In this document: positions 1 through 17,293 of the stretch, piece by piece | How the letters are laid out: every line of letters begins with the position of its first letter | Numbering within the stretch: position 1 is the stretch's first letter | NCBI RefSeq assembly: GCF_030282845.1 | Contig: NZ_JASTWE010000009.1 | Coordinates: forward strand, 1-64,000 | Length of the DNA: 64,000 nucleotides | Source of the DNA: Pseudodesulfovibrio pelocollis | Lineage (GTDB): Bacteria > Desulfobacterota > Desulfovibrionia > Desulfovibrionales > Desulfovibrionaceae | Direction: 5' to 3' | Program-made: the position numbers and the translations under genes | The notes under the pieces: generated by a model | What the model was told of the DNA's origin: nothing | The model's database searches: none | What the model saw: the letters and a program-made list of their open reading frames with translations, nothing else

Positions 1-1262
1 AGGTCGTCGTGTTCGATTTCAACCTGCCAGGCATGAACGGTCTTGAAGCGGGCGAGGCGCTCCTGAGTCACAAGCTGGACCTGCCGCTCGTGCTGCTCAC
101 CGGAGTGGGATCAGAACTGATCGCAGTCAAAGCCATGCGCCTGGGGTTCTTTGACTACATGGTAAAGGACGTCAGCGCGGGCTATCTCAAGCTTCTACCT
201 GCCAAGCTTGAGGAAGTGCTCCGAAGATGCAAACGGGAGAGAGAGCACCGGGAAACCCAGGAGCGATACGCTAGGCTCGTGGAACAATCGCCGGACATCT
301 TTTACACCGTCTCCAGCACGCGCGGCTGGCTCTTTGCCTCCAAGCGGCTGGAAGAGATTCTGGGATATAGTGCGCAGACCATCATGGAAATCCCGGATAT
401 CTGGATGAGCAAAATCCATTCGCAAGATCAGGCCCTTCTTCGAGACGCAATGATCGGGACATCCGCTGGGAGACACTTCTGCCTCGAATATCGAATCCAG
501 GCCAAAGACGGGCAGTGGAAGTGGCTCCGAGACCGCTCCATAAGCGCAAATACCACGGGCGACGAAACAATAATCTCAGGCATTGCCACGGACATCACTG
601 AAGAAAAAAATCTTGAGTACCTCAAAGAGAACTTCGAAATGATCACCCATCACGATCTGCGAAGCCCTCTCTCGGGAATAATCGGCATTTCAAGGATAAT
701 GGAACAGGAAAATGAAGGCTCAGCCAGGGAGCTGGCATGTGCAATCACCGATGCAGCAACCAGGATGTTGGACATGCTCAACCGATGGATGGATCTCTAC
801 AAGCTTGAGGCTGGGATTTTTGAAAGCACCCCCACGAACGTCGACATTGACAAGCTACTCCAATCCGTCATGAGCACCTTGCTCCACAGTCCTGCTTTCC
901 AGGGGGCCAACATCCGCTTTACATCATGTTCGACATCAATCATGACCGATAAAGTGCTTCTTTCGACCATTGTCACCAATTTGCTCAAGAATGCGCTTGA
1001 GGCTGGCGGTGCTGACGATCTCGTGCATCTCGACTGTCAGGATGACGGCGACAAGCTGACCATTGAGGTCCGCAATGCTCAGGAAGTTCCCCCCGATATC
1101 AAGCCATATTTCTTTGAAAAATTTTACTCAAGGGGCAAGCGTTCCGGGACCGGACTCGGCAACTTCTCCGCAAAACTCATGACCGATGCGCTGGGGGGAC
1201 ACATTTCAATGACTTCTTCGGCAGAAAAAGGCACTCTGGTTCGAATAAAACTCAACAAATAG
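1..1262 (+). CDS. Receiver-PAS-histidine kinase (5' truncated by window)
   Basis: The reading frame is open to the first base, so the start lies upstream; about 419 residues are visible. The remnant begins inside a receiver domain just before the phosphoacceptor (FDFNLPGMNG), followed by the conserved Thr (LLTGVG) and Lys (MVKD). A PAS/PAC domain follows at about residues 85-205 (ending ISGIATDIT), then an H-box (HHDLRSPL), an N-box (NLLKNALEAGG) and a short G-box (GTGLGNFSAK). The order receiver then kinase suggests a soluble signalling kinase that takes its input from another kinase and from the PAS ligand. Codon use is AT-richer than in genes beyond 13.4 kb, in line with the island idea. 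No output partner is visible downstream in the same operon; a 242-base gap without features follows. Confidence 0.9.
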   Translation, partial: VVVFDFNLPGMNGLEAGEALLSHKLDLPLVLLTGVGSELIAVKAMRLGFFDYMVKDVSAGYLKLLPAKLEEVLRRCKREREHRETQERYARLVEQSPDIFYTVSSTRGWLFASKRLEEILGYSAQTIMEIPDIWMSKIHSQDQALLRDAMIGTSAGRHFCLEYRIQAKDGQWKWLRDRSISANTTGDETIISGIATDITEEKNLEYLKENFEMITHHDLRSPLSGIIGISRIMEQENEGSARELACAITDAATRMLDMLNRWMDLYKLEAGIFESTPTNVDIDKLLQSVMSTLLHSPAFQGANIRFTSCSTSIMTDKVLLSTIVTNLLKNALEAGGADDLVHLDCQDDGDKLTIEVRNAQEVPPDIKPYFFEKFYSRGKRSGTGLGNFSAKLMTDALGGHISMTSSAEKGTLVRIKLNK

Positions 1263-1504: not shown

Positions 1505-4282
1505 TTGATGAAGAAGACGGTTCTTTCCTGCGCTCGAAAAACACTGACACTGGCTTTGCCTGTGGTGGTTGTCTTTGCGCTGGTGCTTGGTATAACCGGA
1601 AGCGCTCTTTACGAGTATGGGGAGCGGCTCCTTGGGGAACCCCAAGCGAGGCAGATCGAGGTGGAGGCGGCGCTCATCGCGTCCCGCCTGGAAGAGGCCG
1701 CCTCGGATATGCGTTTTCTGGCGCACAGCCACACCATGAACGCCTGGCTGAATAACCCCACCTCCGGCCAGTTGGAGTTGCTGGGTTTCGACTTCCTGCA
1801 CCTGGTCCGAGACAAGGACCTGTTGCTCCAGGTCCGACTTCTCGGGGTCAACGGCGATGAGTTGCTCCGGGCCGAGGTTGACCCGGCGGAGCGCTCCTTC
1901 TTGCGTCCTGTCAGTGATCTGCAGAGCAAGGCCAAGCGGCAATATTTTGCTGCGGCCAGGCAACTGCCCCGCGGGGCGATCCATGTGTCCAGGTTCGACC
2001 TGAATGTGGAAAACGAAGAGATCGAGAGGCCTTTTCGCCCCACGGTGCGTCTGTCCATGCCCCTTTTCAGCGACGAAAACATCCGTCGTGGAGTGCTTGT
2101 ATTCAATCTGCGCGGGGCAACCATTCTTGACTGGCTGAACGAGATTCCCATTCAGGAAGGCTGGCAATTTCTGGTGACCAATGGTCAAGGATATTGGCTG
2201 AAGGGGCCTTCCCGGGATCAGGAATGGGGATTCATGCTGCCCGAAAGAGCATCGGCAAACATGGGCAACGCCTGCCCGGATGCCTGGGAATCAATCGTCG
2301 GGAGCGAATCGGGACGCGTAGCCACCAATGATGGGCTCTTTCTTTTCACCAGCATCGTCCCCTCGCGGGCAGTCCTTGGAACGCGTTCTCCACGCCAGGA
2401 CTCTGCCCTGCTGACTGGCGTGGAGTCAGGCGACACCCGCTGGGTTCTCGTAGCACACCTGCCGCCCGGCGAACTGGCGAAGCATGCCGCGTCGCTGGGG
2501 AGTCCCCTTTTCGTCTCCTTCGGTGTCGGGAGCCTCATTATCGTTTTGTTCTCGCTGCTGTTGGTCCGGGTGCACGAGCGACTTGTAAGCGCCAGAAACC
2601 ACGAAGAAAGCCAGTCCAGGGAGCTTGTGGAAAGCGTCATGAAAATGGGGGAGTTGGTCAAGTCCAACAGGCGCGTCATCTCCCAGCTTCACGAGGCCAA
2701 TGCAAAACTCGAAAGCGTGTTGAAAGCCGCGACCCAGATAGCGATCATTGCGACCGATCCCCACGGGACCATAACCATGTTCAATCCCGGAGCGGAGAAC
2801 CTGCTGGGCTATGCGGCCAAGGACTTGATCGGATTGCATACGCCTGAGGCTTTTCATCTGCCTGAAGAAGTGCAGAAGCGGGGACGAGAGTTGACCAAGG
2901 CTTTGGGCCGTGAGGTGGCCGGGTTTGGCGTGTTCGTCGAATCGGCCCGGCAGAGCGGGTTTGAAAGCCGCGAATGGACCTTTGTGCGCAAAGACGGCTC
3001 AACCCTCGACATGGAGCTTGTAGTGACCCCGATCCGCAGCGGAATGACCACAACGGGTTATCTCGGCATTGCGGTGGATGTGACCGAGCGCAACAAGGCG
3101 CTGCGGGAACGCGAATACAATCGGGCGAGACTCGACGGCATCGTGAACGCTGCCGTGGACGGTATCTTCACCATGGACACCAGGGGATTCATCACTACGG
3201 TCAACAAGGCCGGGGCGGCGCTTTTTGGCTACGCGCCGGAAGAGATCGTGGGACGCAAGGTGAATATGCTCATGGACGAGCCACCTCGAACCGAGCACGA
3301 CAGGTATCTCGAAAAATACCTGGCCACCGGCGAATCCTCGGTCATCAACGTGAGCGGCCGAGAGGTTCCGGGTCGGCACCGCAATGGCATCGCCTTCCCG
3401 TTGGAAATCGCTGTGAGCGAGGTACGGACCGAAACACAGCACTTCTTCACCGGCATCATGCGCGATATAACCGAACGCAAGAAGGCCGAGCAGGCATTGG
3501 TGCTGGCGAACGAGGCCCTGACGGAGAAGCAGCGCGCACTGGACGAGGACATGGCCGCCGCAGCCCAGATACAACTCAGTCTGCTCCCGCAGAAAGCCCC
3601 AACCGCGCGGGGGTTCGCCATGGACTGGCTCTTTCTGCCCAGCGATCATGTGGGCGGTGATGTTTTCAACATCCTGCCCCTGCCTGGCGGAAGGATCGGA
3701 CTCTATCTCATCGACGTGAGCGGGCATGGCCCGGCAGCGGCCATGGTCACGGTTTCCGTTTCCCAGATCATGCAGCCGGGGTCGGAGTTTGTGCAGGACG
3801 AACACGGCCCTCTTGAGCCGGACGAGGTCTTGCGCAGGGTGGACCGAGCCATTCCTCTGGACCGTTTCGACCGGTTCTGCACCATGTTCTACATGGTTTT
3901 CGATCCGGCTTCGCGAATCATAACCTCCTCTGGGGCCGGTCACCCGCCTCCGATCCTGGCACGGCCAGGACATCCGATCATCCAGCTGTCGGCGGGCGGA
4001 ACGGTGATAGGCCTGGGTGAGCCGGTGCCGTTCGTTTCCCAGCGAACCGAGGTCAGGGAAGATGACGTTCTCCTGCTGTATACCGATGGATGCACCGAGC
4101 ACGCCAACTCCGCCGGCCAGCAATTCGGGGCAACCCGTTTGGAAGACGCGCTGATGGCCTCCGTCCACCTGGAGCCGGACGCCATTCTGGAGGAACTGCG
4201 GCGGGAGCTGGACCGTTTTGGCCAAGGTGTGGAGCCTGAAGATGACATCTCTCTGGTCTGCATCAAGTTCAACGACGACTGA
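1505..4282 (+). CDS. Membrane sensor with two PAS domains and PP2C (RsbU-like) phosphatase
   Basis: A 925-residue protein predicted to dephosphorylate a STAS-domain antagonist. Membrane segments at about residues 12-35 and 335-355 bracket a periplasmic sensor region of about 300 residues. Two PAS domains (about 405-530 and 540-655, each ending in an ITE/VTE motif) lead through a helical linker into a SpoIIE/PP2C phosphatase with the metal-binding motifs GGDVF, DVSGHG, YTDG and EDDIS. It is followed at 14 bases by the STAS gene and then the anti-sigma-type kinase, the classic partner-switch order. AAGGAG at 1488-1493 could serve a TTG at 1505 or an ATG at 1508; the longer form is given. The periplasmic ligand is unknown. 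Confidence 0.9.
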   Translation: MMKKTVLSCARKTLTLALPVVVVFALVLGITGSALYEYGERLLGEPQARQIEVEAALIASRLEEAASDMRFLAHSHTMNAWLNNPTSGQLELLGFDFLHLVRDKDLLLQVRLLGVNGDELLRAEVDPAERSFLRPVSDLQSKAKRQYFAAARQLPRGAIHVSRFDLNVENEEIERPFRPTVRLSMPLFSDENIRRGVLVFNLRGATILDWLNEIPIQEGWQFLVTNGQGYWLKGPSRDQEWGFMLPERASANMGNACPDAWESIVGSESGRVATNDGLFLFTSIVPSRAVLGTRSPRQDSALLTGVESGDTRWVLVAHLPPGELAKHAASLGSPLFVSFGVGSLIIVLFSLLLVRVHERLVSARNHEESQSRELVESVMKMGELVKSNRRVISQLHEANAKLESVLKAATQIAIIATDPHGTITMFNPGAENLLGYAAKDLIGLHTPEAFHLPEEVQKRGRELTKALGREVAGFGVFVESARQSGFESREWTFVRKDGSTLDMELVVTPIRSGMTTTGYLGIAVDVTERNKALREREYNRARLDGIVNAAVDGIFTMDTRGFITTVNKAGAALFGYAPEEIVGRKVNMLMDEPPRTEHDRYLEKYLATGESSVINVSGREVPGRHRNGIAFPLEIAVSEVRTETQHFFTGIMRDITERKKAEQALVLANEALTEKQRALDEDMAAAAQIQLSLLPQKAPTARGFAMDWLFLPSDHVGGDVFNILPLPGGRIGLYLIDVSGHGPAAAMVTVSVSQIMQPGSEFVQDEHGPLEPDEVLRRVDRAIPLDRFDRFCTMFYMVFDPASRIITSSGAGHPPPILARPGHPIIQLSAGGTVIGLGEPVPFVSQRTEVREDDVLLLYTDGCTEHANSAGQQFGATRLEDALMASVHLEPDAILEELRRELDRFGQGVEPEDDISLVCIKFNDD

Positions 4283-4296: not shown

Positions 4297-4641
4297 ATGG
4301 AAGAACGCATGATGGGGAAGACGACGATTCTGCGGCCCGTGGAAGAGAGGGTGGACGCCGCCAATTCTGGCCTGCTCAAGAGCCGCTTTGTGGATATGGT
4401 CAACGACGGCCACCGCTCATTCATCATTGATCTTTCGGCAGTGGACTTCATGGACTCCACGGGGCTGGCAGCCCTCATGAGCTGCCTCAAGACACTGGGC
4501 GGCGAGGGGGACATCGTGTTGGCGTCCCTTTCCGTCAAGGTGCGCAAGCTCTTTACGCTGACCCGGCTCGATCAGGGCGTGTTCCGCATCTTCGCATCCA
4601 CGGAAGAAGCGCTGGCTGCGCTCAATGAAAAAGGAAGCTGA
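4297..4641 (+). CDS. STAS-domain anti-sigma factor antagonist (RsbV/SpoIIAA-like)
   Basis: A 114-residue single STAS domain. The phosphorylatable serine sits in the DSTG motif (VDFMDSTGLAAL), as in SpoIIAA and RsbV. In this family the dephosphorylated form binds the partner kinase and releases that kinase's target; the upstream PP2C protein is the expected activator and the downstream HATPase protein the expected kinase. AAGGAG lies 6 bases before the ATG. The stop is 1 base upstream of the preferred ATG of the next gene, so translation is probably coupled. No sigma factor is encoded nearby, so the final output may be a non-sigma target. Confidence 0.93.
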   Translation: MEERMMGKTTILRPVEERVDAANSGLLKSRFVDMVNDGHRSFIIDLSAVDFMDSTGLAALMSCLKTLGGEGDIVLASLSVKVRKLFTLTRLDQGVFRIFASTEEALAALNEKGS

Positions 4642-4642
4642 C

Positions 4643-5068
4643 ATGCATTCGATCGCTCTCTCCATTCCGAGCCGGGCCGAGGCCGTGCGTTTGGCGTGTC
4701 TGGCCATACGGGGACTGTTGCAGGGGGTGAAGCTGGATGACGAGGAAAAGTATCATGTGGAGCTGGCCGTGAGCGAGGCGGCCACCAATTCCATGCGCCA
4801 CGCCTATGGGGGTGAGCCGGAGCACGAAATCGGGCTTCAGGTCAGCATTGATCCAGAAAGATTGATTGTGGAGGTGTCCGACACCGGGCGGTCTCTCGAT
4901 CCTTGCCTGCTTAAGTGCGCCTGCCTGCCGTCCGAGGCGGACGTCCGGGAGGGCGCCGGGGGGCGGGGCCTGTATCTCATCCGCGAGGTCATGGACGATG
5001 TCCGGGTCGAGCGTGTCGACGGGCGCAACGTGCTGCGAATGACAAAGAGCCACAAAGGATTGAAGTGA
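4643..5068 (+). CDS. Serine-kinase anti-sigma factor (RsbW-like HATPase)
   Basis: A 141-residue GHKL ATPase of the RsbW/SpoIIAB type. The N-box (SEAATNSMRHAYGG) and a G1 box (VSDTGRSLD) plus a glycine-rich G2 segment (GAGGRGLYLI) are intact. It should phosphorylate the upstream STAS protein on serine and bind an unidentified output partner. The ATG at 4643 is chosen because AAGGAAG lies 5-6 bases before it; an in-frame ATG at 4625 would overlap the STAS gene by 17 bases. The gene ends only 4 bases from the stop of the convergent PilZ gene, so the switch sits next to the polysaccharide operon, which may be its target by inference. Confidence 0.9.
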   Translation: MHSIALSIPSRAEAVRLACLAIRGLLQGVKLDDEEKYHVELAVSEAATNSMRHAYGGEPEHEIGLQVSIDPERLIVEVSDTGRSLDPCLLKCACLPSEADVREGAGGRGLYLIREVMDDVRVERVDGRNVLRMTKSHKGLK

Positions 5069-5072
5069 GCAC

Positions 5073-5873
5073 CTACAGTGTGCCTATGTAGAGCATGACC
5101 ATGGTGTTGTAGTTGGAGAAGAGCCTGCCCTCCAAATCTTTTATGGCTCGCAGATAGAGCGCCGCAGTGTCGTCGCCCAGCGCTGTGCGGAACAGGTCCA
5201 TGTACAACTCCGGCTCCATGGCCCGGCGCAGTTCCTCAAGGTCAAGGGTTTCGAACCCGGCCTTGGGCCGATCAAGGCATGCCTGCTGGAGCGATTCGAG
5301 ATAGCCCATGTTTTCACGCACACGCTGGTCGATGTCGCCCAGGATCGTCTCCCGGAAGAAACGGTATTCCTCGGGTGAAAACTCGCCCAGACGCGAGAAG
5401 TACGACGAGAGGTGGCGCAAGTAGATGAGGACGCCGCGCTTGAGCAGCACGGAGTCCTTGATCACGCGCAGCAGAATGTTCTCCAATGTTCTCATCCCGC
5501 CAAGATCAATGGCGATTTCACGGCTGCCTATCTCCAGGAACACACCATATTTATCCGGCCCGCCCCCTGTCAGTTGCAGACCGATTCTCTGTTCATCGTC
5601 ATCGCCGTGCCACCGCTCGCGGACTACAGAGCCGACGGTCAGGGTGGTGCCGTCCATGGAAAAGGGCACATGCAGGTTGATCTCGTCGTGCATATGCAGC
5701 CGCTCACGGCTGGCCAGCCAACGGGGAATGGAAATGCCCACCCCGCCCTGACTCACATCCGCGAGCATGTACTGGAATGACTGAAAATCGCTTGTGCGCA
5801 ACCCGATAAAAGGCAGCACCACCGAGGCGATGCCGAGCCGCTTGAACTGCCGGGAATCGGATGCCTGGGTCAT
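5073..5873 (-). CDS. Stand-alone PilZ-domain protein of the polysaccharide operon
   Basis: A 266-residue protein, last gene of the operon running from 13021 down to 5073. The N-terminal half (about residues 8-115) is a PilZ domain with both cyclic-di-GMP signatures: RxxxR (RQFKR) and DxSxxG (DVSQGG). The C-terminal 130 residues are helical and not recognised. The start at 5873 has a GGGAGGG stretch upstream and overlaps the previous gene's stop as ATGA; an upstream extension to 6008 is a shadow. The BcsA-like synthase in this operon lacks a C-terminal PilZ domain, so this protein probably supplies c-di-GMP control in trans. Confidence 0.87.
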   Translation of the reverse strand: MTQASDSRQFKRLGIASVVLPFIGLRTSDFQSFQYMLADVSQGGVGISIPRWLASRERLHMHDEINLHVPFSMDGTTLTVGSVVRERWHGDDDEQRIGLQLTGGGPDKYGVFLEIGSREIAIDLGGMRTLENILLRVIKDSVLLKRGVLIYLRHLSSYFSRLGEFSPEEYRFFRETILGDIDQRVRENMGYLESLQQACLDRPKAGFETLDLEELRRAMEPELYMDLFRTALGDDTAALYLRAIKDLEGRLFSNYNTMVMLYIGTL

Positions 5874-6913
5874 GGCCGTCCCTCCCTGGATGGCAGGGCG
5901 AGGGCACCCGCATGGGACGCAAACATCCCGGCCAGGGGACGCAACCGGGCCGGAGTGACACAGCTCTCCAGCCGCCAATCCTGTTCCTTGTCCGCGTCGA
6001 ACCAGCACAGCCCGGCAAGGCCCCAGTTCCTGGCCGTGTTTACAGCGTCTTCGATCCAGGCCGTCTTGTCGCCCCCTTCGGCAACGGTGGCGGTCTCGAA
6101 GACCACCACCGGCTTGTGCGGGGCCAGGGCGCGCAGTTCCTCGTACAGCGGAGAGAATATCTCGGCAAAGGCCATGAATCGACTGTCCCAGCCATGCTCC
6201 TGCATGGTAAAGGTCGTGCCCCAGTTGTAGCCGTCCATGCCCAGCACGTCCACGGCGTCGTCGCCCGGATAGTAGGAGCTGGCAGTGTTCCAGTCCGCGC
6301 CGTCGCGCACGGGGTGCGGCAGGGATTCAGCATTGGGACAGAACGCGAAAAGCACGTTGTCGGCCCCGTGGAGGCGAAATCGGTCGCGGATATGCCGGAA
6401 CATGGCACGATATCTGGCAGGGCTTTCCGGGCCGTATTCGCTTCTGTCCCCGCCCCAGTGATAGCGCATTAGATTCATTTCATGGGCAAAACGCAGGATG
6501 ATGCGCCCGCCGCTGTCCCGGGCCGACACGGCAAAGGCGTCGATGTATTCGTCCCAGTGGCCATCAAGAATCTCGCGGGCGGCAATTGCGGTTTCCTTCT
6601 CGCCATCAACCGTCATGGGTTCCCAGGTGATGACTGGGACAGCTCCAGCGTCCTGGATTGCCTGGATCCCTTCATCGGGAAACTCAGGCTGGCTTTCCCT
6701 TGGCCAGTGCACGAAGAAGACGACCAGTGTAATGGGCCAGCCGAAGACCTCGTGTACATTTTCAATGGCCTCGGATGAAGGCTGGCCGTGAAGGGCCAGG
6801 CCAAACCCAGGAGGCGGGGGCGGCTGGCAGCCGGTCATCACGGCAAGGACGACCAGCAGCGCCGCCACGTCCCGAACGAGGCCTGTAAGGCGAGGGCAAG
6901 TCTTCAGAATCAT
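5870..6913 (-). CDS. GH26-like glycoside hydrolase lipoprotein
   Basis: A 347-residue protein with a hydrophobic leader ending in a lipobox (VMTGC, Cys29), so it should be a periplasmic lipoprotein. The TIM-barrel body carries the two glutamates expected for family 26 hydrolases: acid/base in FAHEMN (Glu145) and nucleophile in VVFETAT (Glu273). Family 26 acts mostly on beta-mannans and mixed-linkage beta-glucans. In cellulose-type operons the hydrolase (BcsZ, GH8) trims or edits the nascent polymer, and this gene sits in the matching place after the synthase. Its start overlaps the synthase stop as ATGA. The family call is from motifs by eye; the true substrate is unknown. Confidence 0.8.
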   Translation of the reverse strand: MILKTCPRLTGLVRDVAALLVVLAVMTGCQPPPPPGFGLALHGQPSSEAIENVHEVFGWPITLVVFFVHWPRESQPEFPDEGIQAIQDAGAVPVITWEPMTVDGEKETAIAAREILDGHWDEYIDAFAVSARDSGGRIILRFAHEMNLMRYHWGGDRSEYGPESPARYRAMFRHIRDRFRLHGADNVLFAFCPNAESLPHPVRDGADWNTASSYYPGDDAVDVLGMDGYNWGTTFTMQEHGWDSRFMAFAEIFSPLYEELRALAPHKPVVVFETATVAEGGDKTAWIEDAVNTARNWGLAGLCWFDADKEQDWRLESCVTPARLRPLAGMFASHAGALALPSREGRP

Positions 6914-8562
6914 GGCCGTTTCTCCTCCGGGTAATTGAACCAGAAGATGGAGGAGAGAAGCAGAAAGTGATAGAAACACCAGAAGGAGTTGGTAAGCAGG
7001 GCCAAAGGAGTGACCCCTTCATACCAAAACCTCAATCCACCCCACCACACGGCGGAAAAACAGGCCAAGGCCAGAAGTATCTGCATCCACAGCCCGCGAA
7101 GGGGCAGCGAGGTGGCTCCGGCCTTGGGCGTGATGCCAAACGTGCCGCGAAAGCCGAGTATGCCAAGCAGGGACGCCTTCATGTATACGGGAAAACACAA
7201 TGCCTGGAGTAGGATTCCTTGTGCCAACTCCCTGAACGAGTAGCGTCGCTGGCTCATGGAAAACAGAAACAGTGACAGGGTCAGCAGGATGTAGGGCACG
7301 AAAAACAGGAAATATATCTCCGGTCTGGCAAAGTAGCTGGGCACATTGAAGAAGAGGAACAGCACCGGGCAGAGCATCATGACGAAAAGCACCCACCCCA
7401 CGAAATAGTGCGTGCCCGAAAGGAAGTACTCCCACCACTTGGCCGCACTCATGCGCCGCGGGTTGCGGAAAAAGGCCCCCACGATGGTGCGGAACAGCCC
7501 CACCGTGCCAAGCGCCCAGCGGAACTGCTGCTTGAAGTACCCGCCCAGATCCTCCGGTCCCATGCCAAAGGCGCAGACCTTGTTGAGGTAGGCCGAGGAC
7601 CATCCCCGCTCATGGAACTTGAGAGAGGTGGCGAAATCCTCGGTGACGCTGGATTCCTCGAATCCGCCCACGTCCCACAGCGCCTGCCTGTTGAAGATGA
7701 CGTTGGTGCCGCAGCAAAACATGGCGTCCTGCAGGCTCTTGCCCTCGCAGATGTACTCGTAGAACACCGCCTGCTGGAGACCGGCAGCGCGGGCCACCCG
7801 GTTGAACTCGAAGTTGGTATAGTACTGCGGGGTCTGAATGAAGGCCAGGGTGGGGTTGTCCTCCATGAAGGCCACGAGCGGTTCCACAAAATCGGGCAGC
7901 GGGTTCATGTCCGCGTCGAACACGATGATGTACTTCTCGTCCAGGGCAGAGGGCTCGTCCTCGAAGCTGGTCAGGGTGAACCCTTCCGGCGGGTCGCCGT
8001 GCAGATAGTGCAGGAAGTCGTTGATCACCCCGGCCTTGGCTCCGCGCCAGGGACGGCGGAACAGGTTGACGCCGATGCGCTCGCACAACTCGTCCACGCT
8101 GGAGCGATAGTCGGTCAGATCCTGACCGGGCTTGTCGTAGCGGGTGTCGTCCAGGAAATAGATGTGCTTGTTTGGGTAGTTCAGGTTGTAGAAACAGGTC
8201 AGGGTGTCCTCGATCACTTCCAACGGCTCGTGGTAGGAGGCGACGATGATGGCGACCGGCGGATAGCTGCGCAGGGGCGGAACGCGGTCCATGGCGATGC
8301 GCCGCTCCTGCTTCGGACTGTGCAGCACATGGAATATGTTCAGGAAGTAGCCGAAGGCGTGGAGCATGGTGAAGGTCTCGGCCATGAGCAGGGCCATGGC
8401 CAGCCACTTCTCGGTCCAGTGGTAGTCCGCGACGATGAAGAGGGATGTCCGCACCATGAGATACAGAAAGATGCAGACCATGGCCGCCCCCAGCAGGAGG
8501 GAGAAGGAGGTGGTGGCCATCACTCCTTTTGGCCTTGCGCCCGGAGCGGCCCTAGAATCCAT
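6910..8562 (-). CDS. Processive family-2 glycosyltransferase (BcsA-like, no PilZ domain)
   Basis: A 550-residue inner-membrane polysaccharide synthase. Two N-terminal membrane segments are followed by a cytosolic GT-A domain with the full processive signature: DDT (138-140), DAD (216-218), TED (307-309) and QQFRW (345-349), then about five C-terminal membrane helices. It would polymerise a nucleotide-sugar into a beta-linked chain and move it across the membrane. The C-terminus stops after the last helix, so the PilZ domain of canonical BcsA is absent. The ATG at 8562 has GGAG 6 bases upstream and overlaps the upstream gene by 11 bases; an ATG at 8520 has AAGGAG too close (2 bases). Confidence 0.92.
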   Translation of the reverse strand: MDSRAAPGARPKGVMATTSFSLLLGAAMVCIFLYLMVRTSLFIVADYHWTEKWLAMALLMAETFTMLHAFGYFLNIFHVLHSPKQERRIAMDRVPPLRSYPPVAIIVASYHEPLEVIEDTLTCFYNLNYPNKHIYFLDDTRYDKPGQDLTDYRSSVDELCERIGVNLFRRPWRGAKAGVINDFLHYLHGDPPEGFTLTSFEDEPSALDEKYIIVFDADMNPLPDFVEPLVAFMEDNPTLAFIQTPQYYTNFEFNRVARAAGLQQAVFYEYICEGKSLQDAMFCCGTNVIFNRQALWDVGGFEESSVTEDFATSLKFHERGWSSAYLNKVCAFGMGPEDLGGYFKQQFRWALGTVGLFRTIVGAFFRNPRRMSAAKWWEYFLSGTHYFVGWVLFVMMLCPVLFLFFNVPSYFARPEIYFLFFVPYILLTLSLFLFSMSQRRYSFRELAQGILLQALCFPVYMKASLLGILGFRGTFGITPKAGATSLPLRGLWMQILLALACFSAVWWGGLRFWYEGVTPLALLTNSFWCFYHFLLLSSIFWFNYPEEKRP

Positions 8563-11500
8563 AGCGAACTCCGGTCCAGAATCCATTGGCGTTCCATTCC
8601 GGCGAGCGATGCATCAGGCCACGCGCCTCGATGCCCCAGTGGTCGGTAATATCCAACACCCACTCCGCTTCCAGCTGAATGGAATTGTTGGCGTCCGAGC
8701 CCGTGGCACCCGTGAGTCTGACATCCACGAAATGTTGTTTCGCCCCGCAGAAGAAGTCGTCCGCCAGATCCGCATACCACTCAAGCGTGGCCGAACCAGC
8801 CAGATACCCCTGCGGCGTCCAGTAGGGGTGGATGATGTCGGTCAATGTCCCTGCGGTGTCGATCTCCTGGCTGTGGTGCCTGGTATGCCGGTAATCCCCG
8901 CGCAGGATGACCTTGAACATGCGTGGATGGTCTGTCAGCGCGTAGCCCACGGCCAAGTGGGCCGCTTCGCCCGAATTGCTGTCGCTGTACTCGATGTGTC
9001 GGGCGCTGGCCTCCACATCCAATCGTCGTCCGGCAGGGACGCGCGCATCGACAAGAAAGTGGTCCGACTGCGTGCCCTTGAGCAGAGCAAAGCGGTTCGC
9101 CACTTCGTCCACGCGCTCATAGCCGAAGCCCAACCGGGCAGCATTGCGCAGGTTCAGCTCCAACCGTGTGCGGTATTGATCGGTATCCTTGGGGTCGGCG
9201 GCGCCAAAGCGCTTGGCCGTCCATGACGCCTGACCGCTGAACCATTCGTTAAAAACCCCGGAAAAGCCGAGTGTCCCGCCCAAGGCGCTGTACTGTGTGC
9301 TTGGGCCTTGCGGCATCTCCTGCCAGCGGTGGGCGGTCATGTCCAGCCGCAGGCTGCATTGCACCGGCAGGGATACCTGCAGGTCGTTGCGCAGCCGGAC
9401 CATGTTGGCGAGATTGCCGCGCCCCTTCTCTTCCCAGAGGTTCACCCCGGCCCGGAGCCAGGGAGCGCTGCGCCGCTTGTTTCTTTCAAGTGCCTGCCCG
9501 GCCAATGAGTGCTGGGGGTCGATCTCCAGAAGCCGCTCATAGGTGGCGGCCTCTTCCTCGCACAATCCCAGGGCACACTGGGTCTGGGCAAGATCGAACC
9601 ACGCCTCCTGGTTGTCGGGCCGCAGATCGGTCAAAGCGGTCAGATCGTTCATGGCCGGGGCAAACCGCCGGTTGAAGGCCGCCAGTTTGGCCCGTCGCTC
9701 CAGATCTGTTGCATGCTGGATGCGATACAGAGGCAGAAGCTCCGCGAAAATCATGGGATGCGTCCGGGCAACGTCGGTGTCGGACAGGTCGGCATAGGCC
9801 AGGAAAATGCCGCCCCCATAAGCGCTTCGACGCGCAAGGGCTGCGGCTCTCGCTAGCTGGACGTCACCCCGGCCCGCGTCCATTTCCTCCTCTAGCCGTT
9901 CAGCCAGCAACTCGTCCACCGGCGGTTCGAGCATGCGGTCGAATATCTCCGAGGCATGTTGGGCACGCTTGTCCCAGAAGGCGGCCCGTGCCATCTCCCG
10001 CAGCGGCACAGGGTCAGCAGGGTCGGCGGCATGCAGGGCCTCGAAGGCGGCAATGGACTCGTCGTAGCGCCGATCCCAGGCCAGCACTCTGGCGCGGGTG
10101 AGCAGAATCTTGGAGCTGTCGGGAAAATCGGTTGCCAACCCGTCGAGCAGCTTGAGAGATTCACCGAAGCGTCGGGCATAAGCCAGATTCTCGGCCAGGG
10201 CCATGCGCGCCGGGAAGAACTCGGGGTCATGCCTGAGGGCGGTCTCAAGACAGGAGAGGGCCTCTGCATGGTATCCATCCCGAGAAAACAGATCGGCCCA
10301 GAGTGTGAGTTCGTCAGGTTTGGTTTCGGTTTGAATCACTTCACGGCTCAAGATCGCCGGGGCGTGGCCGGGTCTGGCAAGCACCGCGTGGTAGCGGGCA
10401 GGCGGGTACTCCGGGTCCAGTTCATGGGCGCGGTCAAAAACGTCTTTCGCGGCTTGCGTGTCACCAGCTCGTTCAAGGACTCTGCCCAGTTCCACCAGCG
10501 TGGCCGGATCGTCATGGGCCAGCCGTCTCCAAATGGAAGCCGCCTCGGCATATCTTCCAAGCAACGTCAGAGCCTGGGCGCGCAGCGCTTCGACCCTGGA
10601 GTCGCTCCCGGCCTTGGCAAGCGGGTCCAACACCACCAGAGCCGCCCTCCCGTTCTTCTCCTGCAACTTGACTCGGGCCAGGGCCAGCCGAGCCGCCGTG
10701 TCATCGGGGTTCACCATCAATTCTACGCGCAACACCCCTTCGGCTTCCTCGTATCGCTGGGCGCTGGCCAACGCTTCGGCCAAGGCGCGAGTCACCTGAG
10801 GGTCCGGTCCCTGTGTTGCCAGATACTCCCGCCGGATGGACGCGGACTGCTGAAAAGCCCCCCAAAGATTCATGAACTGCGCCAGCCGCAACCGCGCCTG
10901 CGGCGTATCGTCCGCTTTCACCGCCTGCATGGCGTACTTTCGTGCCGCACTGGCGTGGCCCTGCGCAGCCTCCAGGTCGGCCAGTTCATACAGGAGCGCG
11001 GCGTTGTCCGGAGCCAATGCCGCCAACTGGTCAAGCATGGCTCGGGCACGCCGGGTGTCGCCTGTCTGGGCGAGGACTCGCGAGTAGAGCAGGGAAATTT
11101 CCACATCCGTAGGGTGCTGGGCGTGCAATTCGGACAGCAACGGCGCTGCGCGCTCAGCCTGTCCCGACCAGGCCATGGCCTGGGCCAGGCGCAGGCCGAG
11201 GTCTGGCCGTTGCGACCCGGCATCGCGGGCGCGTTGGTAGGCTGCCGCAGCCTCGGCCATGCGCCCGGAAGCAAAGAAAGCGTCTCCAAGTCCGCCCGCA
11301 ACGCGTGGGTCGTTCTGATCTAGGGTGTGGTAGAGTTTTTGCGCCTCGTCCTCGCGGCCCAGGCGCAGGAGCACCTCGGCCAGCTCCAGAGAGAGTTCGC
11401 TGTTTGCGGGAGTCAGGGCGACGAGGCGGCGGTATTCGGCTTCAGCCTGGACCAGCGTGGCTTCCGAGTAGGAGTAAAGACGGGCCAGCAGATGCCGGGC

Positions 11501-11671
11501 CTCGTGATCGGAGATGGCGCTTCGCGGAGAAACGAGGCTGGCGGCCAGCGCGAGTGACGGCGCAAGACACCAGAGTACCGCCGCAAGCGTCACTGCCAGT
11601 GGCATGAGCCACCAGCCTGCGAAGCCTTGGCGCAGGCTACTCCAGCGTTCGTTTGAGCTCTCGGATGGCAT
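8552..11671 (-). CDS. TPR-rich polysaccharide export porin (PgaA/BcsC-like)
   Basis: A 1039-residue protein. After an N-terminal hydrophobic leader ending LALAA, about 650 residues of tandem TPR repeats follow (recurring pattern A-x-L-x8-A/P, with separate arrays to about residue 730). The last 280 residues alternate short amphipathic strands and end in YGF, the C-terminal aromatic signature of outer-membrane barrels. This matches the two-part design of PgaA, BcsC and PelB: a periplasmic TPR scaffold plus an outer-membrane channel for the polymer. The start is uncertain: 11671 overlaps the upstream gene by 35 bases and gives a basic n-region; an ATG at 11605 would give a leader lacking positive charges. 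Confidence 0.88.
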   Translation of the reverse strand: MPSESSNERWSSLRQGFAGWWLMPLAVTLAAVLWCLAPSLALAASLVSPRSAISDHEARHLLARLYSYSEATLVQAEAEYRRLVALTPANSELSLELAEVLLRLGREDEAQKLYHTLDQNDPRVAGGLGDAFFASGRMAEAAAAYQRARDAGSQRPDLGLRLAQAMAWSGQAERAAPLLSELHAQHPTDVEISLLYSRVLAQTGDTRRARAMLDQLAALAPDNAALLYELADLEAAQGHASAARKYAMQAVKADDTPQARLRLAQFMNLWGAFQQSASIRREYLATQGPDPQVTRALAEALASAQRYEEAEGVLRVELMVNPDDTAARLALARVKLQEKNGRAALVVLDPLAKAGSDSRVEALRAQALTLLGRYAEAASIWRRLAHDDPATLVELGRVLERAGDTQAAKDVFDRAHELDPEYPPARYHAVLARPGHAPAILSREVIQTETKPDELTLWADLFSRDGYHAEALSCLETALRHDPEFFPARMALAENLAYARRFGESLKLLDGLATDFPDSSKILLTRARVLAWDRRYDESIAAFEALHAADPADPVPLREMARAAFWDKRAQHASEIFDRMLEPPVDELLAERLEEEMDAGRGDVQLARAAALARRSAYGGGIFLAYADLSDTDVARTHPMIFAELLPLYRIQHATDLERRAKLAAFNRRFAPAMNDLTALTDLRPDNQEAWFDLAQTQCALGLCEEEAATYERLLEIDPQHSLAGQALERNKRRSAPWLRAGVNLWEEKGRGNLANMVRLRNDLQVSLPVQCSLRLDMTAHRWQEMPQGPSTQYSALGGTLGFSGVFNEWFSGQASWTAKRFGAADPKDTDQYRTRLELNLRNAARLGFGYERVDEVANRFALLKGTQSDHFLVDARVPAGRRLDVEASARHIEYSDSNSGEAAHLAVGYALTDHPRMFKVILRGDYRHTRHHSQEIDTAGTLTDIIHPYWTPQGYLAGSATLEWYADLADDFFCGAKQHFVDVRLTGATGSDANNSIQLEAEWVLDITDHWGIEARGLMHRSPEWNANGFWTGVRYGF

Positions 11672-12257
11672 CCTCGTTCCGCCCGGCCCAGGATAGCGCC
11701 TGGGCATATTTTCGCCTGATTTGCACGTCTTCGGGATGACGTTTCAGCAGTCGTTCATATTGCTCGAAGGAATCGTCCAGCCTGTCGCTCCACGAATACA
11801 CTTCGGCCAGTTTCAGCCGCGCGGCGTCATTGTCGGGGTTCTCCGCCAGCACAGCCGAGAGCTGCCTGATGGCCATGTCGTATTGGCGGCGGCCAATGGC
11901 GTGATCGGCAATGAGCATCCTGTCGTCCGAGGTGATGGCCGAATCAGGAAGTGCCATAAAAAGACGAATGGCCTCCTCGTTCTTCCCGGTCCAGGCCAGA
12001 ACCCTGGCCAGACGGACACGCGCAACCTCGTTTTCCGGTTGCTGCTCCAGCACCTTTCGATACTGGGCCGCAGCCTCGTCGAAACGGCCCGCGCCCGAAA
12101 GCAGGTCGCCCAGCTCAAGCCGGGCCTGCCAGTCCGGGACATCCTGGCTTGCCGTGGGCCTGTCGGATGTCGGCACGGGATTATTGACTTGGGCAAAGGT
12201 GTTGTCACAAACGAAAAGCAAGACGAGAACGAGGGCAACGGCAAAAAATCTGATCAC
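11637..12257 (-). CDS. Secreted TPR protein of the polysaccharide operon
   Basis: A 206-residue protein with a Sec-type leader (hydrophobic stretch ending TFAQ at about residue 23), followed by four TPR-like repeats (residues about 45-200). It starts with GTG at 12257, with GGAGG about 6 bases upstream, and its start overlaps the upstream stop as GTGA, so translation is coupled. The repeats resemble those of the large porin immediately downstream, so it probably extends the periplasmic scaffold or arose by partial duplication. No enzymatic motif is visible. Confidence 0.85.
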   Translation of the reverse strand: MIRFFAVALVLVLLFVCDNTFAQVNNPVPTSDRPTASQDVPDWQARLELGDLLSGAGRFDEAAAQYRKVLEQQPENEVARVRLARVLAWTGKNEEAIRLFMALPDSAITSDDRMLIADHAIGRRQYDMAIRQLSAVLAENPDNDAARLKLAEVYSWSDRLDDSFEQYERLLKRHPEDVQIRRKYAQALSWAGRNEDAIRELKRTLE

Positions 12258-13021
12258 TGTTCCTCCCCCAGCAGCCGCCTGTATTCGGTTTCTGCCTCAT
12301 CTATCCGGCCACTCCAGCTCAGGATGCGGGCCAGAACCAGGCGAGCGGCCCGATCATCCGGGTGGGCGCGGACCAAGTCGCGGGCCAGCGGCAGAGCGGC
12401 TTCCATGTCTCTCGCCCAAGTCAGCGTCTCCACCCTGGCCAAGGCTGCCTCGGCATCCATCGGGTCTTCCGCAAGCAGGTTTTCATATTCGGCCAGAGCT
12501 TGGTCATAACGCTGTTGACGACGAAAAAGGTCAGCCAGCTGCATCCGTTCGCCCCGACTCAAACTCTCGTGCTTGACCCGCATCATGAGAGCCAACGCCT
12601 CGTCATCGTACCCGTACGAGTCCATAAGCCCGGCCATTTGCCCGGCCAATCCGACCGGGGTCGGGCGTGTCTCCGAGAGGGTCTGTTCCAAAAGGGAGGA
12701 CGCCTGCCTGCCTCGACCGCTCTCCAACAAAAATTTCGCCGCCTGAAGCACGGCATCGGGTCGATGTGCGCCTTCATTCACGGCTCGAACGATCATCGCG
12801 TCGGACTCGGAAGAACGTCCCTCTTTGGCAAGCATTTTGGCGCGATGCAAAAGCACAATCGGCTCATTGACCGCAGGATACAAAAAAAGCATGCCCGCCG
12901 CGGAAAGGACAAGGAGCACCGCATAGATGCTTTTCTGCCTGGTTTGCATATCCATGGCTTGCGTCCGCTCATCCATGTCCGGGTTGTCTGCATGCTCTTT
13001 CAGAACGGGTTTGACCACCAC
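12254..13021 (-). CDS. Inner-membrane-anchored TPR protein, first gene of the polysaccharide operon
   Basis: A 255-residue protein with one membrane segment (SIYAVLLVLSAAGMLFLYPA, about residues 31-50) and TPR repeats in the remaining 200 residues, predicted to face the periplasm. The start is not settled: GTG at 13021 is the longest form, while ATGs at 12976, 12955 and 12949 are also possible and none has a clear ribosome site. It opens a six-gene operon on the minus strand with overlapping junctions throughout. Its function is probably to link the synthase in the inner membrane with the periplasmic TPR chain; this is inference from position. Confidence 0.82.
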   Translation of the reverse strand: MVVKPVLKEHADNPDMDERTQAMDMQTRQKSIYAVLLVLSAAGMLFLYPAVNEPIVLLHRAKMLAKEGRSSESDAMIVRAVNEGAHRPDAVLQAAKFLLESGRGRQASSLLEQTLSETRPTPVGLAGQMAGLMDSYGYDDEALALMMRVKHESLSRGERMQLADLFRRQQRYDQALAEYENLLAEDPMDAEAALARVETLTWARDMEAALPLARDLVRAHPDDRAARLVLARILSWSGRIDEAETEYRRLLGEEQ

Positions 13022-13329
13022 TCACGACTCTTCTGGTATACCGTTCATGTATTTATTTCAAGCATCTCCATTCAAAAGATCAATACCCCACCCCTTTTGA
13101 CGCAGGGTCAGGCTGAGTTGAGGGGCAAAACGGGGCTGAACCAGTTTGACAGTGTCGAAGCACGAAGACAAGCCACAGGCCGGGATATCGCTTCGGCGTA
13201 TGGATCAGCACCCTTTCCCCGTGGCTCGTCCGTGGCTCCATACGTGTCAAACCTGTTTTTCGTGGCGCTGGTGTCGTTTGCAAGCGGCTGAAATCACCTA
13301 GTAAGCGGCCTCCCGTGGGTTTCAGTATA
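13022..13329. other. Intergenic stretch at the inner island edge
   Basis: About 308 bases upstream of the polysaccharide operon. It should hold the operon promoter on the minus strand, but I cannot choose a -35/-10 pair with confidence. Short reading frames across it look like noise. No integrase remnant is recognisable here, so if the island carries one it lies beyond the left end of the window. Confidence 0.5.
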
Positions 13330-13375
13330 CCCTTTCACGCCGTTAACAGGAGTTCAAATCCCCTTGGGGACGCCA
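13330..13375 (+). repeat. 3' half of tRNA-Glu(TTC): candidate attachment site
   Basis: The sequence matches the second half of bacterial tRNA-Glu: anticodon loop CTTTCAC with anticodon TTC at 13334-13336, T-arm at 13348-13364 (AGGAG, TTCAAAT, CCCCT), acceptor strand TGGGGAC at 13365-13371, discriminator G and CCA at 13373-13375. The 5' half (expected to begin GTCCCC) is absent upstream, and identity fades around the anticodon loop. That is the usual crossover segment when integrases target tRNA 3' ends, so this is read as the displaced native end after integration on the left. Two differences from the usual sequence (an A in the T-stem, TTCAAAT for TTCGAAT) suggest decay. It is not a functional tRNA. 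Confidence 0.78.
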
Positions 13376-13384
13376 AGGAGAATC

Positions 13385-13417
13385 AACGGGTTACAGCAAT
13401 CGCTGTAACCCGTTTTT
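13385..13417 (+). terminator. Rho-independent terminator after the tRNA-Glu remnant
   Basis: A 12-bp perfect stem (13385-13396 with 13403-13414) closed by a 6-base loop and followed by a T-run on the plus strand. On the minus strand no U-run would follow, so it does not serve the convergent ablB gene well. It is probably the original terminator of the intact tRNA-Glu gene before integration. Confidence 0.85.
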
Positions 13418-13530
13418 CGTTTGCGTGGCTCGGCCATCGTGCTCGGCCATGTGCCGTCGGGTATCCTGCCCTGGCCCCGGATTGACCCCCCTCTCGAGGG
13501 AGGGGCGGCGGGGTGAGAACCGCGAGCCCG

Positions 13531-14394
13531 TCAGCGGGCGGCCAGTCGTCGATGCCAGACATTCATGCTCTCCAGCCGCCCGGCGATCTGGGTGTTGTTG
13601 TGCAGGGTGCCGCCGTAGCGGTAACCCGCCCGTGCAAAGACCGTGTTCATGCCGTAGCTGGCGGCCCGGGCGATGGTATAGGTGGTGCGGATGCCCCGGC
13701 CGCGCACGGCATCCTCCATGTGGGCCAGCAACCGCCCGGCCGCGCCCTGGCCGCGCATGGTCGGCAGGGTGGCGAAGTCGGTCATCTCCGCGCATTTCCA
13801 GTGCATGTCCATTTCGGCCGAGGCTGCGGCCAGCAGCCCTTCGTCACCGGCGGGATTACCTGGAATTGCGCCCGGAATGCCGAAGAAGGCCACGTCCGAG
13901 TCCATGGCCTCGCGCAGATAGCCGGGGTCGGTGATGGGAAAGGGATAGGTCTCGAAGACCGCGCCGTAGAGGGCGGCCAGGGCCTCGGCATGCTCTGGCC
14001 CCAGGCGGATCACGGCCGGGCCGGGCGCGGCCACCACGGGCTTGCGCGACTTGCGTTCGGCCACGTCCAGGACATCGGCGATGCGCTCCGGGTCGGCGGG
14101 CACGGCGCGCCTGCGGGCCAGGTATCGGCTCATGAAGCAGGCGCTGCCCTCGCCCCGGCGCATGCCCGGAACCCGCGCCTCGTTGACGAACCCGCGCCGG
14201 GCAAAGTGGTCGGCCGCATCGGCCGGGACCTTGGCAAAGAGCTTGGTATAGCCGTGCTCGCGACCCAGATCGTGCATGGCGTCCACGATGCCCGGCAGGT
14301 CGGCGCGGTCGAGCTTCATCAGGTAGACCCGGTCATTGGCCGGGCCGTGCTGGACCAGGGAGTTGCCCAGCCGGGTGACGGAATCATGCCGCAT
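13531..14394 (-). CDS. ablB: Beta-lysine N-acetyltransferase
   Basis: A 287-residue GNAT-family acetyltransferase predicted to convert L-beta-lysine plus acetyl-CoA to N-epsilon-acetyl-beta-lysine, a compatible solute. The C-terminal GNAT core shows the acetyl-CoA loop ([14 protein letters not shown]), preceded by the ATLPTM strand, and ends with [24 protein letters not shown], typical of AblB. It follows the lysine aminomutase gene with an 11-bp overlap; GGAGG lies 7-8 bases before the ATG. The pairing with ablA makes the assignment firm. Osmotic control is expected from the family's known role, not from anything visible here. Confidence 0.92.
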
Positions 14395-15697
14395 CGTCGC
14401 GCCTCCCCATGCGCTCGTTACTCTGCGGGGTCAGGCTGTTGGTCTCGTCCCAGTCCGAAAGCAGCTTCTCAATGCCGATGGCCTTTTCCTCGGCGTCGTC
14501 CTCCTTGAGCTGGAGGTTGCACTTGGCGCACTCGCGGTCGCAGTAGTTGGCCTCGTAGCTTTCAGGCTCGTGGTAGGTGGTGATGACGCCCTCGTAGTTG
14601 CGCAGCACGACCTTGTTCGGCCCCCAGGAGACCACGTAGTTGGGCATGACCGGGATCTTGCCGCCGCCGCCCGGGGCGTCCACCACATAGGTGGGCACGG
14701 AAAACCCGCTGGTGTGGCCGCGCAGGCTCTCGATGATCTCGATGCCCTTGCCTATGGGCGTGCGGAAATGGGTCAAGCCTTCGGACAGGTCGCACTGGTA
14801 GAGGTAATAGGGCCTGATGCGGTTCTTGATCAGCTTCTGATTGAGGGTGCGGATGAGCCGCTGGCAGTCGTTGACCCCGGCCAGGAGCACTGACTGGTTG
14901 CCCAGGGGGATGCCCGCGTCGGCCAGCCGCTGCACGGCCCGGCGCGACGAGGCGGTCAACTCGCGCGGATGGTTGAAGTGGGTGTTGATCCACAGCGGAT
15001 GGTGCCTGGCGAGCATGGCCACCAGATCCTCGGTGATGCGGTAGGGCAGGACCACGGGCGTCCTGGTGCCGATGCGCACCACGTCCACGTGCTCGATGGC
15101 GTCGAGCTGGGTCAGCAGCCAGTCGAGCTTGTCGTCCGAGAGCATGAGCGGATCGCCGCCGGAGAGGAGCACGTCACGCACCTGGGGGGTGTCGCGAATG
15201 TACTGAAGGCCAGCCTCAAGAGCCTCGCGCGAGGGCACGGAGTCCACATCGCCCACCTTGCGCTTGCGCGTGCAGTGGCGGCAGTACATGGCGCAGACGT
15301 TGCTGACGTGGAAGAGCACCCGGTCCGGGTAGCGATGGGTGATGCCGGGCACCGGGCTGTCCTCGTCCTCGTGCAGCGGGTCGGTCATGTCGTGCCGCCC
15401 GATCTTCAGTTCCTCGGGGCTGGGGAAGGACTGGAGAAAGACCGGATCATTCTCGTAGTCGTCCACGTCGATGAGCGAGAGATAGTACGGGGTCACGGCC
15501 ATGGGGAACTTGTCCAGGGTCCGCTCGTAGATGCGCCGCTTCTTCTCGGGAAACTTCACGCCCAGCACGCGTTCGAAGTCGGCCACGCTCTTGACGGTAT
15601 TGCGCACCTGCCATTTCCAGTCGGTCCAGTCGGTCCAGGAGGCCGTGTCGCGCAGCGTCCTGGCCACTTCCTGCTGATGTTCGTTGAATATGGTCAA
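14384..15697 (-). CDS. ablA: Lysine 2,3-aminomutase (radical SAM)
   Basis: A 437-residue enzyme that converts L-lysine to L-beta-lysine. The radical SAM cluster motif CAMYCRHC gives Cys135, Cys139 and Cys142, and the PLP-binding lysine lies in GGGGK (Lys347). A C-terminal cysteine group (YCDRECAKC) matches the zinc-binding end of known lysine aminomutases. The start is TTG at 15697, with AAGGAG 5 bases upstream; longer forms would overlap the ABC gene, which ends 13 bases away. It is the fourth gene of an operon running from the binding protein at 18079 through permease and ATPase to ablB, which suggests the transporter feeds it lysine. Confidence 0.95.
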
Positions 15698-15710
15698 ATC
15701 GTCTCCTTGG

Positions 15711-16448
15711 TTACAATATTCGGCCGAGGAATTCCCGGGTGCGGGGCTTCCGCGGGGCTTCGAAAAAAGCCTCCGGGCAGTCCTGCTCAAGGATCACGCC
15801 CTCGTCCATGAAGGCCACCGAGTCGGCCACCTCGCGGGCAAAGCCCATCTCGTGGGTGACCACCATCATGGTCATGCCGTCGTCGGCCAACTGGCGCATG
15901 ACGGACAGCACCTCGCCCACCAGTTCCGGGTCCAGGGCCGAGGTGGGCTCGTCAAAGAGCATCACCTCCGGCTCCATGGCCAGGGCGCGGGCAATGGCCA
16001 CGCGCTGTTTCTGCCCGCCCGAAAGGGTCTGGGGATAGACGCTCTCCTTGTCGGCCAGCCCCACCTTGTCCAGGAAGTAGCGGCCCAGTTCGCGGGCCTT
16101 GGCCTTGGGCATGCCGCGCACCTGGGTCGGGCCTTCGGTGACGTTGCCGAGCACGGTCATGTGCGGGAACAGGTTGAAGTGCTGGAAGACCATGCCCACC
16201 CGCGAACGCAGGGCGTTGATGAACCGCTCGTCGCCGTGGACGAGCTGGCCGCTGACGCGGATCTCGCCCTGATCGTACGTCTCCAGGTAGTTGACGCAGC
16301 GAAGCAGCGTACTCTTGCCCGACCCGCTGGCCCCGATGACGCAGACCACGTCAGACGGCATGACCGCCATGTCGATGCCCCTGAGCACGTGATGCTCGCC
16401 GAACCACTTGTTCAGCCCCTGTATTTCGATGACCGGTGTCTGATGCAC
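15711..16448 (-). CDS. Polar amino-acid ABC transporter ATPase (GlnQ-like)
   Basis: A 245-residue ATPase with Walker A (GASGSGKST), Q-loop (VFQHFNLF), signature (LSGGQKQR), Walker B (VMLFDEP) and H-loop (VVTHEMG), all intact and typical of the GlnQ/HisP group. GTG at 16448 is chosen because GGGAGGA sits about 6 bases upstream; an ATG at 16520 would overlap the permease gene and add a basic, non-homologous tail. It acts with the permease and lipoprotein upstream. Its position directly before ablA points to lysine as the likely substrate, by inference. Confidence 0.93.
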
Positions 16449-16500
16449 CGCTTCCTCCCGTGGTTTGAAGATTCTCCGCTGCCGCCGCTTTCGACTCCGA

Positions 16501-17157: not shown

Positions 17158-17238
17158 GCCAGTGTCCGATGTCTTGAGGGTTGGGACCGGCCGGGGCGGT
17201 GCGCCCCGGCCGTTGTGTCGTCTGTTGTGTCGTCAGCG

Positions 17239-17269
17239 GGCGGCCATCGATCAGCGACCGATGGCCGCC
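17239..17269 (-). terminator. Stem-loop between binding-protein and permease genes
   Basis: An 11-bp perfect inverted repeat (17239-17249 with 17259-17269) and a 9-base loop, without a T-run. Such structures between binding protein and membrane components often stabilise the upstream message or reduce read-through, so the binding protein is made in excess. Role inferred from position. Confidence 0.6.
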
Positions 17270-17293
17270 GAACCCGACCACGCCGGGCGGTGT

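Follow-up and report, generated by a model that had tools for sequence, protein, structure and literature searches.

Introduction

Integration of genomic islands into tRNA genes follows a described scheme, in which sequence carried by the element restores the gene and the displaced fragment of the original is left at the far end of the island; the Islander paper (PMC4383910) gives this scheme and also lists tandem arrays and sites of the anticodon type among tRNA-targeted islands. Salmonella genomic island 1 (SGI1) is described as having a second site of attachment and as forming tandem arrays (PMC2297512). Our literature search returned no paper combining Pseudodesulfovibrio, genomic island, tRNA and integrase, and among further publications, judged by title, none named Pseudodesulfovibrio or a tRNA-Glu site.

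Here we analyze a 64,000-nucleotide stretch of the Pseudodesulfovibrio pelocollis genome (the window; positions without contig name refer to it), which starts at base 1 of contig C9 in a draft assembly of 138 contigs; its closest relatives with a name are uncultured Pseudodesulfovibrio. It contains a tRNA-Glu fragment that is very probably the attR core of an element which a tyrosine integrase inserted into a tRNA-Glu gene, with the genes to its left lying in the island, as far as can be judged from sequence comparison. This supports, in the main, the initial annotation, in which the fragment was interpreted as an island edge.

Results and Discussion

The tRNA-Glu fragment and its terminator

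The core of the locus consists of two features:
13331..13375, + strand: displaced 3' half of tRNA-Glu(TTC), from the anticodon loop to CCA (differs at a single base from the intact gene of contig C61; homology begins abruptly at 13331; no tRNA called)
13385..13419, + strand: intrinsic terminator (T run after a stem at 13385-13414), duplicated along with the fragment (terminator scan, fold, comparison with C61)

The fragment reads CCTTTCACG...GACGCCA, and its sole mismatch to the tRNA-Glu(TTC) gene of C61 is at 13351 (A here vs G in the intact gene), an expected T-stem position, which would fit a copy freed from selection. Over 13331-13435, 100 of 105 bases are identical to C61 (mismatches at 13351, 13378, 13422, 13423 and 13433), with an E value of 4.4e-41 in a BLAST search of 13331-13430; the number of 42-mers with no more than one mismatch expected by chance in the window is ~1e-18, if equal base frequencies are assumed. 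The base directly 5' of 13331 differs from C61, and no tRNA 5' half precedes the fragment. ARAGORN called no tRNA at this position (its only call in the window was tRNA-Sec, 20535-20628), and a search against Rfam with E values of up to 10 allowed did not detect one either, the only matches nearby being sub-threshold ones to other families.

The terminator stem has 13 counted pairs, and its T run lies 3' of the stem on the + strand; the same inverted repeat passes the terminator scan on the - strand too, with a weaker T run. The RNA fold has -29.7 kcal/mol (z -7.3), none of 200 shuffled sequences folding equally well, and 13379-13421 is identical to C61 without a single mismatch. Thus, both the tRNA-Glu 3' half lacking its 5' half and the terminator facing in the direction of the tRNA were correctly recognized initially, with coordinates accurate to within 1-2 bases.

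The arm and its repeated boxes

Directly upstream of the fragment lies a conserved stretch, designated here as the arm, and a short box recurs on both sides of the core:
13219..13330, + strand: arm, the conserved end of the island unit on its right side, immediately 5' of the fragment, ~110 bp (match on contig C79; 10-site alignment)
13220..13228, + strand: box CGTGGCTCG in the arm, candidate arm-binding site of the integrase (sequence repeat)
13424..13432, + strand: second box CGTGGCTCG, 3' of the terminator (sequence repeat)

The arm is conserved in all ten aligned sites, i.e., the window, C79 and eight sites from other genomes that were chosen among the best-scoring matches of a genus-wide search with arm plus fragment; in the site from G006, the arm is kept in the alignment and the fragment itself is decayed. 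Arm and fragment occur together in at least 14 of the 36 Pseudodesulfovibrio genomes, that of P. pelocollis included, if a match has to start at or before query position 30 and end at or after 170 (among the matches listed). The box is present in the window in only two copies (13220 and 13424), which flank the core, with none on the reverse strand, and two tandem copies stand on the integrase side of C61. The boxes CGTGGCTC may be regarded as candidate binding sites for the integrase.

Intact tRNA-Glu genes and a second fragment in the same genome

A BLAST search with the fragment region revealed two intact tRNA-Glu genes, one with the anticodon TTC on C61, behind tRNA-Gln, and one with CTC on C50, behind tRNA-Lys; this count refers to the BLAST search with the fragment region. 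The fragment of the window belongs to the TTC type (95% identity to C61 over 105 bases, 86% to C50). A second TTC-type fragment is found at the end of C79, preceded by the arm that is also seen in the window (92% identity over 136 bases; C79 1-136 aligns with 13219-13353), which suggests that the element may form a tandem array. Fragment and intact gene are located on separate contigs (C9 and C61) with the interval unassembled, and C84 (see below), C79 and C9 have no sequence linkage. Since 1-1500 of the window gave no other good match in the genome, the contig preceding C9 is not indicated; contig C44, which has an integrase near its end, gave no BLAST match with the fragment.

At the intact tRNA-Glu(CTC) gene of C50, an integrase-end remnant (...GGDREPPALKLVR; C50:17029-17114, locus L065) adjoins the tRNA gene, and the gene next to it resembles a phage capsid gene on inspection by eye. 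This may be an older, decayed island at the second (CTC) site.

The integrase

On C61, the last 35 codons of a tyrosine-integrase gene face the tRNA-Glu(TTC) gene, past the terminator, with the stop codon 85 bases from the CCA end. Contig C84 terminates within the body of a tyrosine-integrase gene (PF00589, E 1.6e-13), at a break that we take to fall just before the region of the catalytic tyrosine. The two contig ends have only 6 bases in common, followed by one differing base. In six relatives (G010, G032, G033, G006, G013, G005), a single open frame of 364-365 codons spans both parts, and the integrases of the relatives read ...ATTQRYIHKVKKSTGAVDALDA... through the break. These data support, without proving it, that C84 adjoins C61. 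The intact tRNA-Glu gene with an integrase that had been predicted outside the window is thus found at C61, with the integrase end 85 bases away and its body probably on C84. As PF00589 has 14 matches in this genome (13 of them above the cut-off), the presence of an integrase has little weight by itself; what counts is its position beside the tRNA gene.

In five relatives, the integrases adjoining tRNA-Glu(CTC) have 91-92% identity to the C84 integrase, and an integrase of G005 has 88%. The identity of the C84 integrase to full-length integrases on the side of tRNA-Glu(TTC) is 61-63% (G032, G006, G008, G017, G033, G002, G010), and 71% to a partial integrase at tRNA-Glu(TTC) in G033. It is therefore nearest to the integrases of CTC sites rather than of TTC sites, and yet its end adjoins the TTC gene here. 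At E<=1e-20, its family comprises in this genome only the C84 protein itself and one with 37% identity on C8.

The same layout in related genomes

In G010, G013, G032, G033 and G006, an intact tRNA-Glu(CTC) gene, the 91-92% identical integrase and the arm with the fragment follow each other on one contig and one strand, with a spacing of about 17-22 kb from core to core (the CTC anticodon was called by ARAGORN in four of the five and taken from the alignment in G032). In G004, tRNA-Glu(CTC) is accompanied by a different integrase (40%), with arm and fragment 8.1 kb further. Fragment and intact gene are thus seen on one replicon, in the same orientation and with an island between them, in all six of these genomes. 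In G010, another integrase (38%) is located immediately right of the fragment (3584277-3585113), in an array-like manner.

This order bears on the alternative that the fragment is just a decayed duplicate of tRNA-Glu that arose without any integration. Several members of the genus do have two tRNA-Glu(TTC) genes near each other, which could speak for such an origin, but the break at the anticodon loop, the same ~110 bp arm in 10 of 10 aligned sites and the succession of intact gene, integrase and arm with fragment in the five relatives make this origin highly improbable.

The unit at tRNA-Glu(CTC) of G010 (L216, 3565500-3585400) encodes type I restriction proteins (R, M, S), a SEFIR/TIR protein and a BRO-N protein; it is a defence cargo behind the same arm. 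Similar open frames can be seen by eye in G013. At L223, L134 and L135 (G010, G013, G034), tRNA-Glu(TTC) is present as two full-length genes, which lie on the same strand at a distance of ~6-17 kb. In G003, the start of the arm is fused to an integrase remnant, with no tRNA fragment (L147 16480-16640, corresponding to G003 C9:30479-30639); this fusion apparently arose by deletion between GTGGCTCGT repeats.

The left cargo

The genes to the left of the arm include a signalling part (the partner switch of the initial annotation) and an exopolysaccharide cluster:
1..1262, + strand: response-regulator / PAS / histidine-kinase gene, incomplete at the contig edge (Pfam, contig start)
1409..13238, no strand assigned: left cargo unit, common to G003 (86%) and, over 1477-13249, to G004 (87%), with the right limit inside the arm in both
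1505..4282, + strand: sensor-PAS-SpoIIE phosphatase (Pfam)
4625..5068, + strand: HATPase_c_2 protein, anti-sigma-kinase-like (Pfam)
5073..5996, - strand: PilZ-domain protein (Pfam)
5870..6979, - strand: glycosyl hydrolase family 26-like protein (Pfam)
6910..8586, - strand: cellulose-synthase-like glycosyltransferase 2 (Pfam)
8552-11707, 11637-12257 and 12254-13021, - strand: three TPR proteins of the exopolysaccharide cluster (Pfam)

The kinase gene had been called truncated in the initial annotation. As a sign of integration, this truncation had to be rejected, since base 1 of the window is base 1 of C9 and it is the contig edge that cuts gene 1-1262. Furthermore, 1-1409, which includes this gene, has no DNA match in the stretches of G003 and G004 that were examined. 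The proposal that everything on the left is inside the island is supported for the partner switch and the polysaccharide genes, the cargo that ends at the arm in three genomes; the comparison lends it no support for 1-1409.

Indeed, the right limit of the cargo (to about 13240) coincides with the arm in the window, G003 and G004, each time with different neighbours further right, i.e., the fragment and a GNAT gene here, an integrase remnant in G003 and other genes in G004, where the arm at the cargo end is decayed and no fragment follows. In G003, the cargo lies on the same contig as the GNAT block, 63 kb apart, without a fragment at its end. In G004, it is found downstream of tRNA-Glu(CTC) and lies between two arms, the left one complete and with a complete fragment, the right one (3504085-3504253) at a distance of 6.5 kb and with a fragment that is degraded. 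The combination of the same remnant with the same left flank, which had been held to speak against an island, occurs in none of G008, G003 and G004: in G008, the GNAT gene is 2.7 kb away from arm and remnant, but the left side is unlike that of the window; G003 has the left flank with no remnant at that junction, and its arm with fragment elsewhere, on its contig C4; and in G004 the left flank is located at the other tRNA-Glu gene (CTC).

The GC content is 52.6-61.6% left of 13030 vs 65-66% right of 13435 (C61, 64.7% in its first 9 kb; C79, 60.3%; C84, 59.4%). With a threshold of E<=1e-100, the cargo glycosyltransferase is detected in 3 of the 35 other genomes of the genus and in 8 of all 59 other genomes searched. 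G026 matches 2612-12556 of the window at 71%, with neither arm nor tRNA-Glu in the 19.9 kb examined.

This match could be taken to mean that the cargo is ordinary chromosome, beside which arm and fragment were brought by a rearrangement between tRNA-Glu loci, and so could the cargo of G004, which follows a complete fragment and terminator at the CTC site and, on its own, is readable as a flank. However, the arm with the degraded fragment further right in G004 places the cargo inside an array, the cargo is patchily distributed and lower in GC, and the arm is its right limit in three genomes. We thus consider a chromosomal origin of the cargo unlikely.

The right flank and the search for an empty site

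The first flank gene outside the island encodes an acetyltransferase:
13531..14394, - strand: GNAT acetyltransferase gene (Pfam; synteny with G004)

In G004, genes of the C61 type, tRNA-Gln, tRNA-Glu(TTC), the counterpart of 20749-21562, RND-type genes (so assigned on inspection of their translation by eye), the counterpart of 13529-20644 and that of 21561-24139 follow each other in one orientation. The GNAT block (13529-20644) is thereby 10 kb from tRNA-Glu(TTC), on the same side and in the same orientation, and because of this order the right side of the window is assigned to the neighbourhood of the TTC gene. The RND-type and other genes that stand between tRNA and GNAT block in G004 are absent there in the window, and related genes are located left of the GNAT block in G003. 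At the TTC site of G004, no arm or integrase of the island type was detected, and other genes intervene.

A clean empty site, with an intact tRNA-Glu(TTC) running directly into 13436 onward, was not seen among the loci compared (matches of at least 100 bases), and at the same threshold the stretch from 13436 to about 13527 matched none of these loci. Eight flanks were used for this comparison (the right sides of the junctions in the window, G010, G013, G032, G033, G006 and G008, and the stretch downstream of tRNA-Glu(TTC) in G004), with the source loci of the G010, G013, G032, G033 and G006 flanks left out, and none showed a tRNA-Glu/flank junction in the compared loci. The right flank of the G004 array occurs in five others of the 36 genus genomes (that of P. 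pelocollis included), never beside tRNA-Glu among the matches listed.

The lack of a match next to the terminator is one of the points that suit a somewhat different history, in which the fragment is the inner junction of a longer array whose right-hand units were deleted, so that the GNAT gene became its neighbour secondarily. The fragment would then still be an attachment junction, although not the original outer edge, and this possibility overlaps with the attR interpretation rather than excluding it. Similarity to the integrase side of C61 runs past the terminator to 13435 and includes the box CGTGGCTCG, the next about 92 bases match no compared locus, other genes adjoin the GNAT block in G003 and G004, and the fused arm and integrase remnant of G003 indicates that such deletions seem to occur. 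On the other hand, no integrase remnant is seen 3' of 13435, unlike on C50 and in G003, and G008 likewise has arm and fragment near the GNAT block (2.7 kb). We regard a loss of right-hand units as possible but less likely than not.

Two further features were observed on the right side. Colinearity with G003 C9 ends at 20644, 16 bases past tRNA-Sec; in G004, the counterpart of 20749-21562 follows tRNA-Glu(TTC) at a distance of about 200 bases, and the sequence from 21563 onward matches a different contig of G003. As judged from these alignments, gene order was rearranged a second time next to a tRNA gene, at 20535-20749. A ~120 bp repeat at 59428-59550, perhaps the end of an insertion sequence, is also present on G003 C9, on G008 C54 (near the fragment of that genome) and, over part of its length, in related stretches on C50.

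Proposed integration and use of two tRNA-Glu genes

According to the preferred interpretation, the element would integrate by means of its tyrosine integrase in the part of tRNA-Glu from the anticodon loop to the 3' end. It would carry its own tRNA 3' half and terminator beside the integrase gene, and thereby restore the tRNA gene at one end (C61), whereas the original 3' half and terminator would be displaced to the far end (13331-13419), behind the conserved right arm (13219-13330). The left cargo, with its signalling genes and exopolysaccharide cluster, would belong to the island. It would probably be the unit furthest out in a tandem array, with the arm and fragment on C79 as the inner junction of this array; the left side is then probably one array unit and not the whole island. 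Direct observations are the fragment with its arm, the intact gene with the adjoining integrase end, and the same layout in relatives. We infer the order C84, C79, C9 between C61 and the right flank of the window, the exact crossover point, the assignment of one of the terminator copies to the element, and a binding of the integrase to the boxes.

The layout in the relatives, the integrase end at C61 and the cargo ending at the arm in G003 and G004 count for an island, as do the contrast in GC, the patchiness of the cargo glycosyltransferase and the gene order of G004. Against it count the missing clean empty site, the RND-type genes in G004, the overlap of C84 and C61 by just 6 bases, the G003 cargo without fragment, the CTC-like C84 integrase, and the G026 match devoid of arm and tRNA-Glu.

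A CTC-type integrase beside the TTC gene and the presence of the cargo at the CTC site of G004 suggest an exchange between sites. It is an even question whether the two tRNA-Glu isoacceptor genes (TTC and CTC) serve as interchangeable sites for one element family, between which the 12 kb cargo has moved. If so, the right arm would be shared and the integrases related, and the cargo would occupy the CTC site in G004, the TTC site here and possibly the TTC site in G003.

The locus thus probably marks where acquired DNA meets resident DNA, with mobile cargo left of 13331 (at least from 1409) and flank from 13531, and it offers a defined family of attachment sites in Pseudodesulfovibrio, consisting of arm, core, terminator and integrase. 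It also provides a natural and directly testable case in which integrases of one family are associated with the genes of two tRNA isoacceptors.

Comparison with known islands

The tRNA-targeted genomic island is a known arrangement, of which this is a further case in Pseudodesulfovibrio. As in the islands defined by Islander (PMC4383910), there are an intact gene and a displaced 3' fragment, an integrase of the tyrosine family and a site at the anticodon loop, and tandem arrays are known there as well. Unlike those islands, the present one is split over contigs, and the relative orientation of gene and fragment is unassembled in this genome. With SGI1 (PMC2297512), it would share the use of two chromosomal sites by one element and the tandem arrays. 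However, the sites of SGI1 are thdF and an intergenic site, whereas those of the present element would be two isoacceptor tRNA genes, and the cargoes are unrelated; moreover, the use of two sites and the arrays were established experimentally for SGI1 (PMC2297512), whereas here it is the sequence comparison that suggests them.
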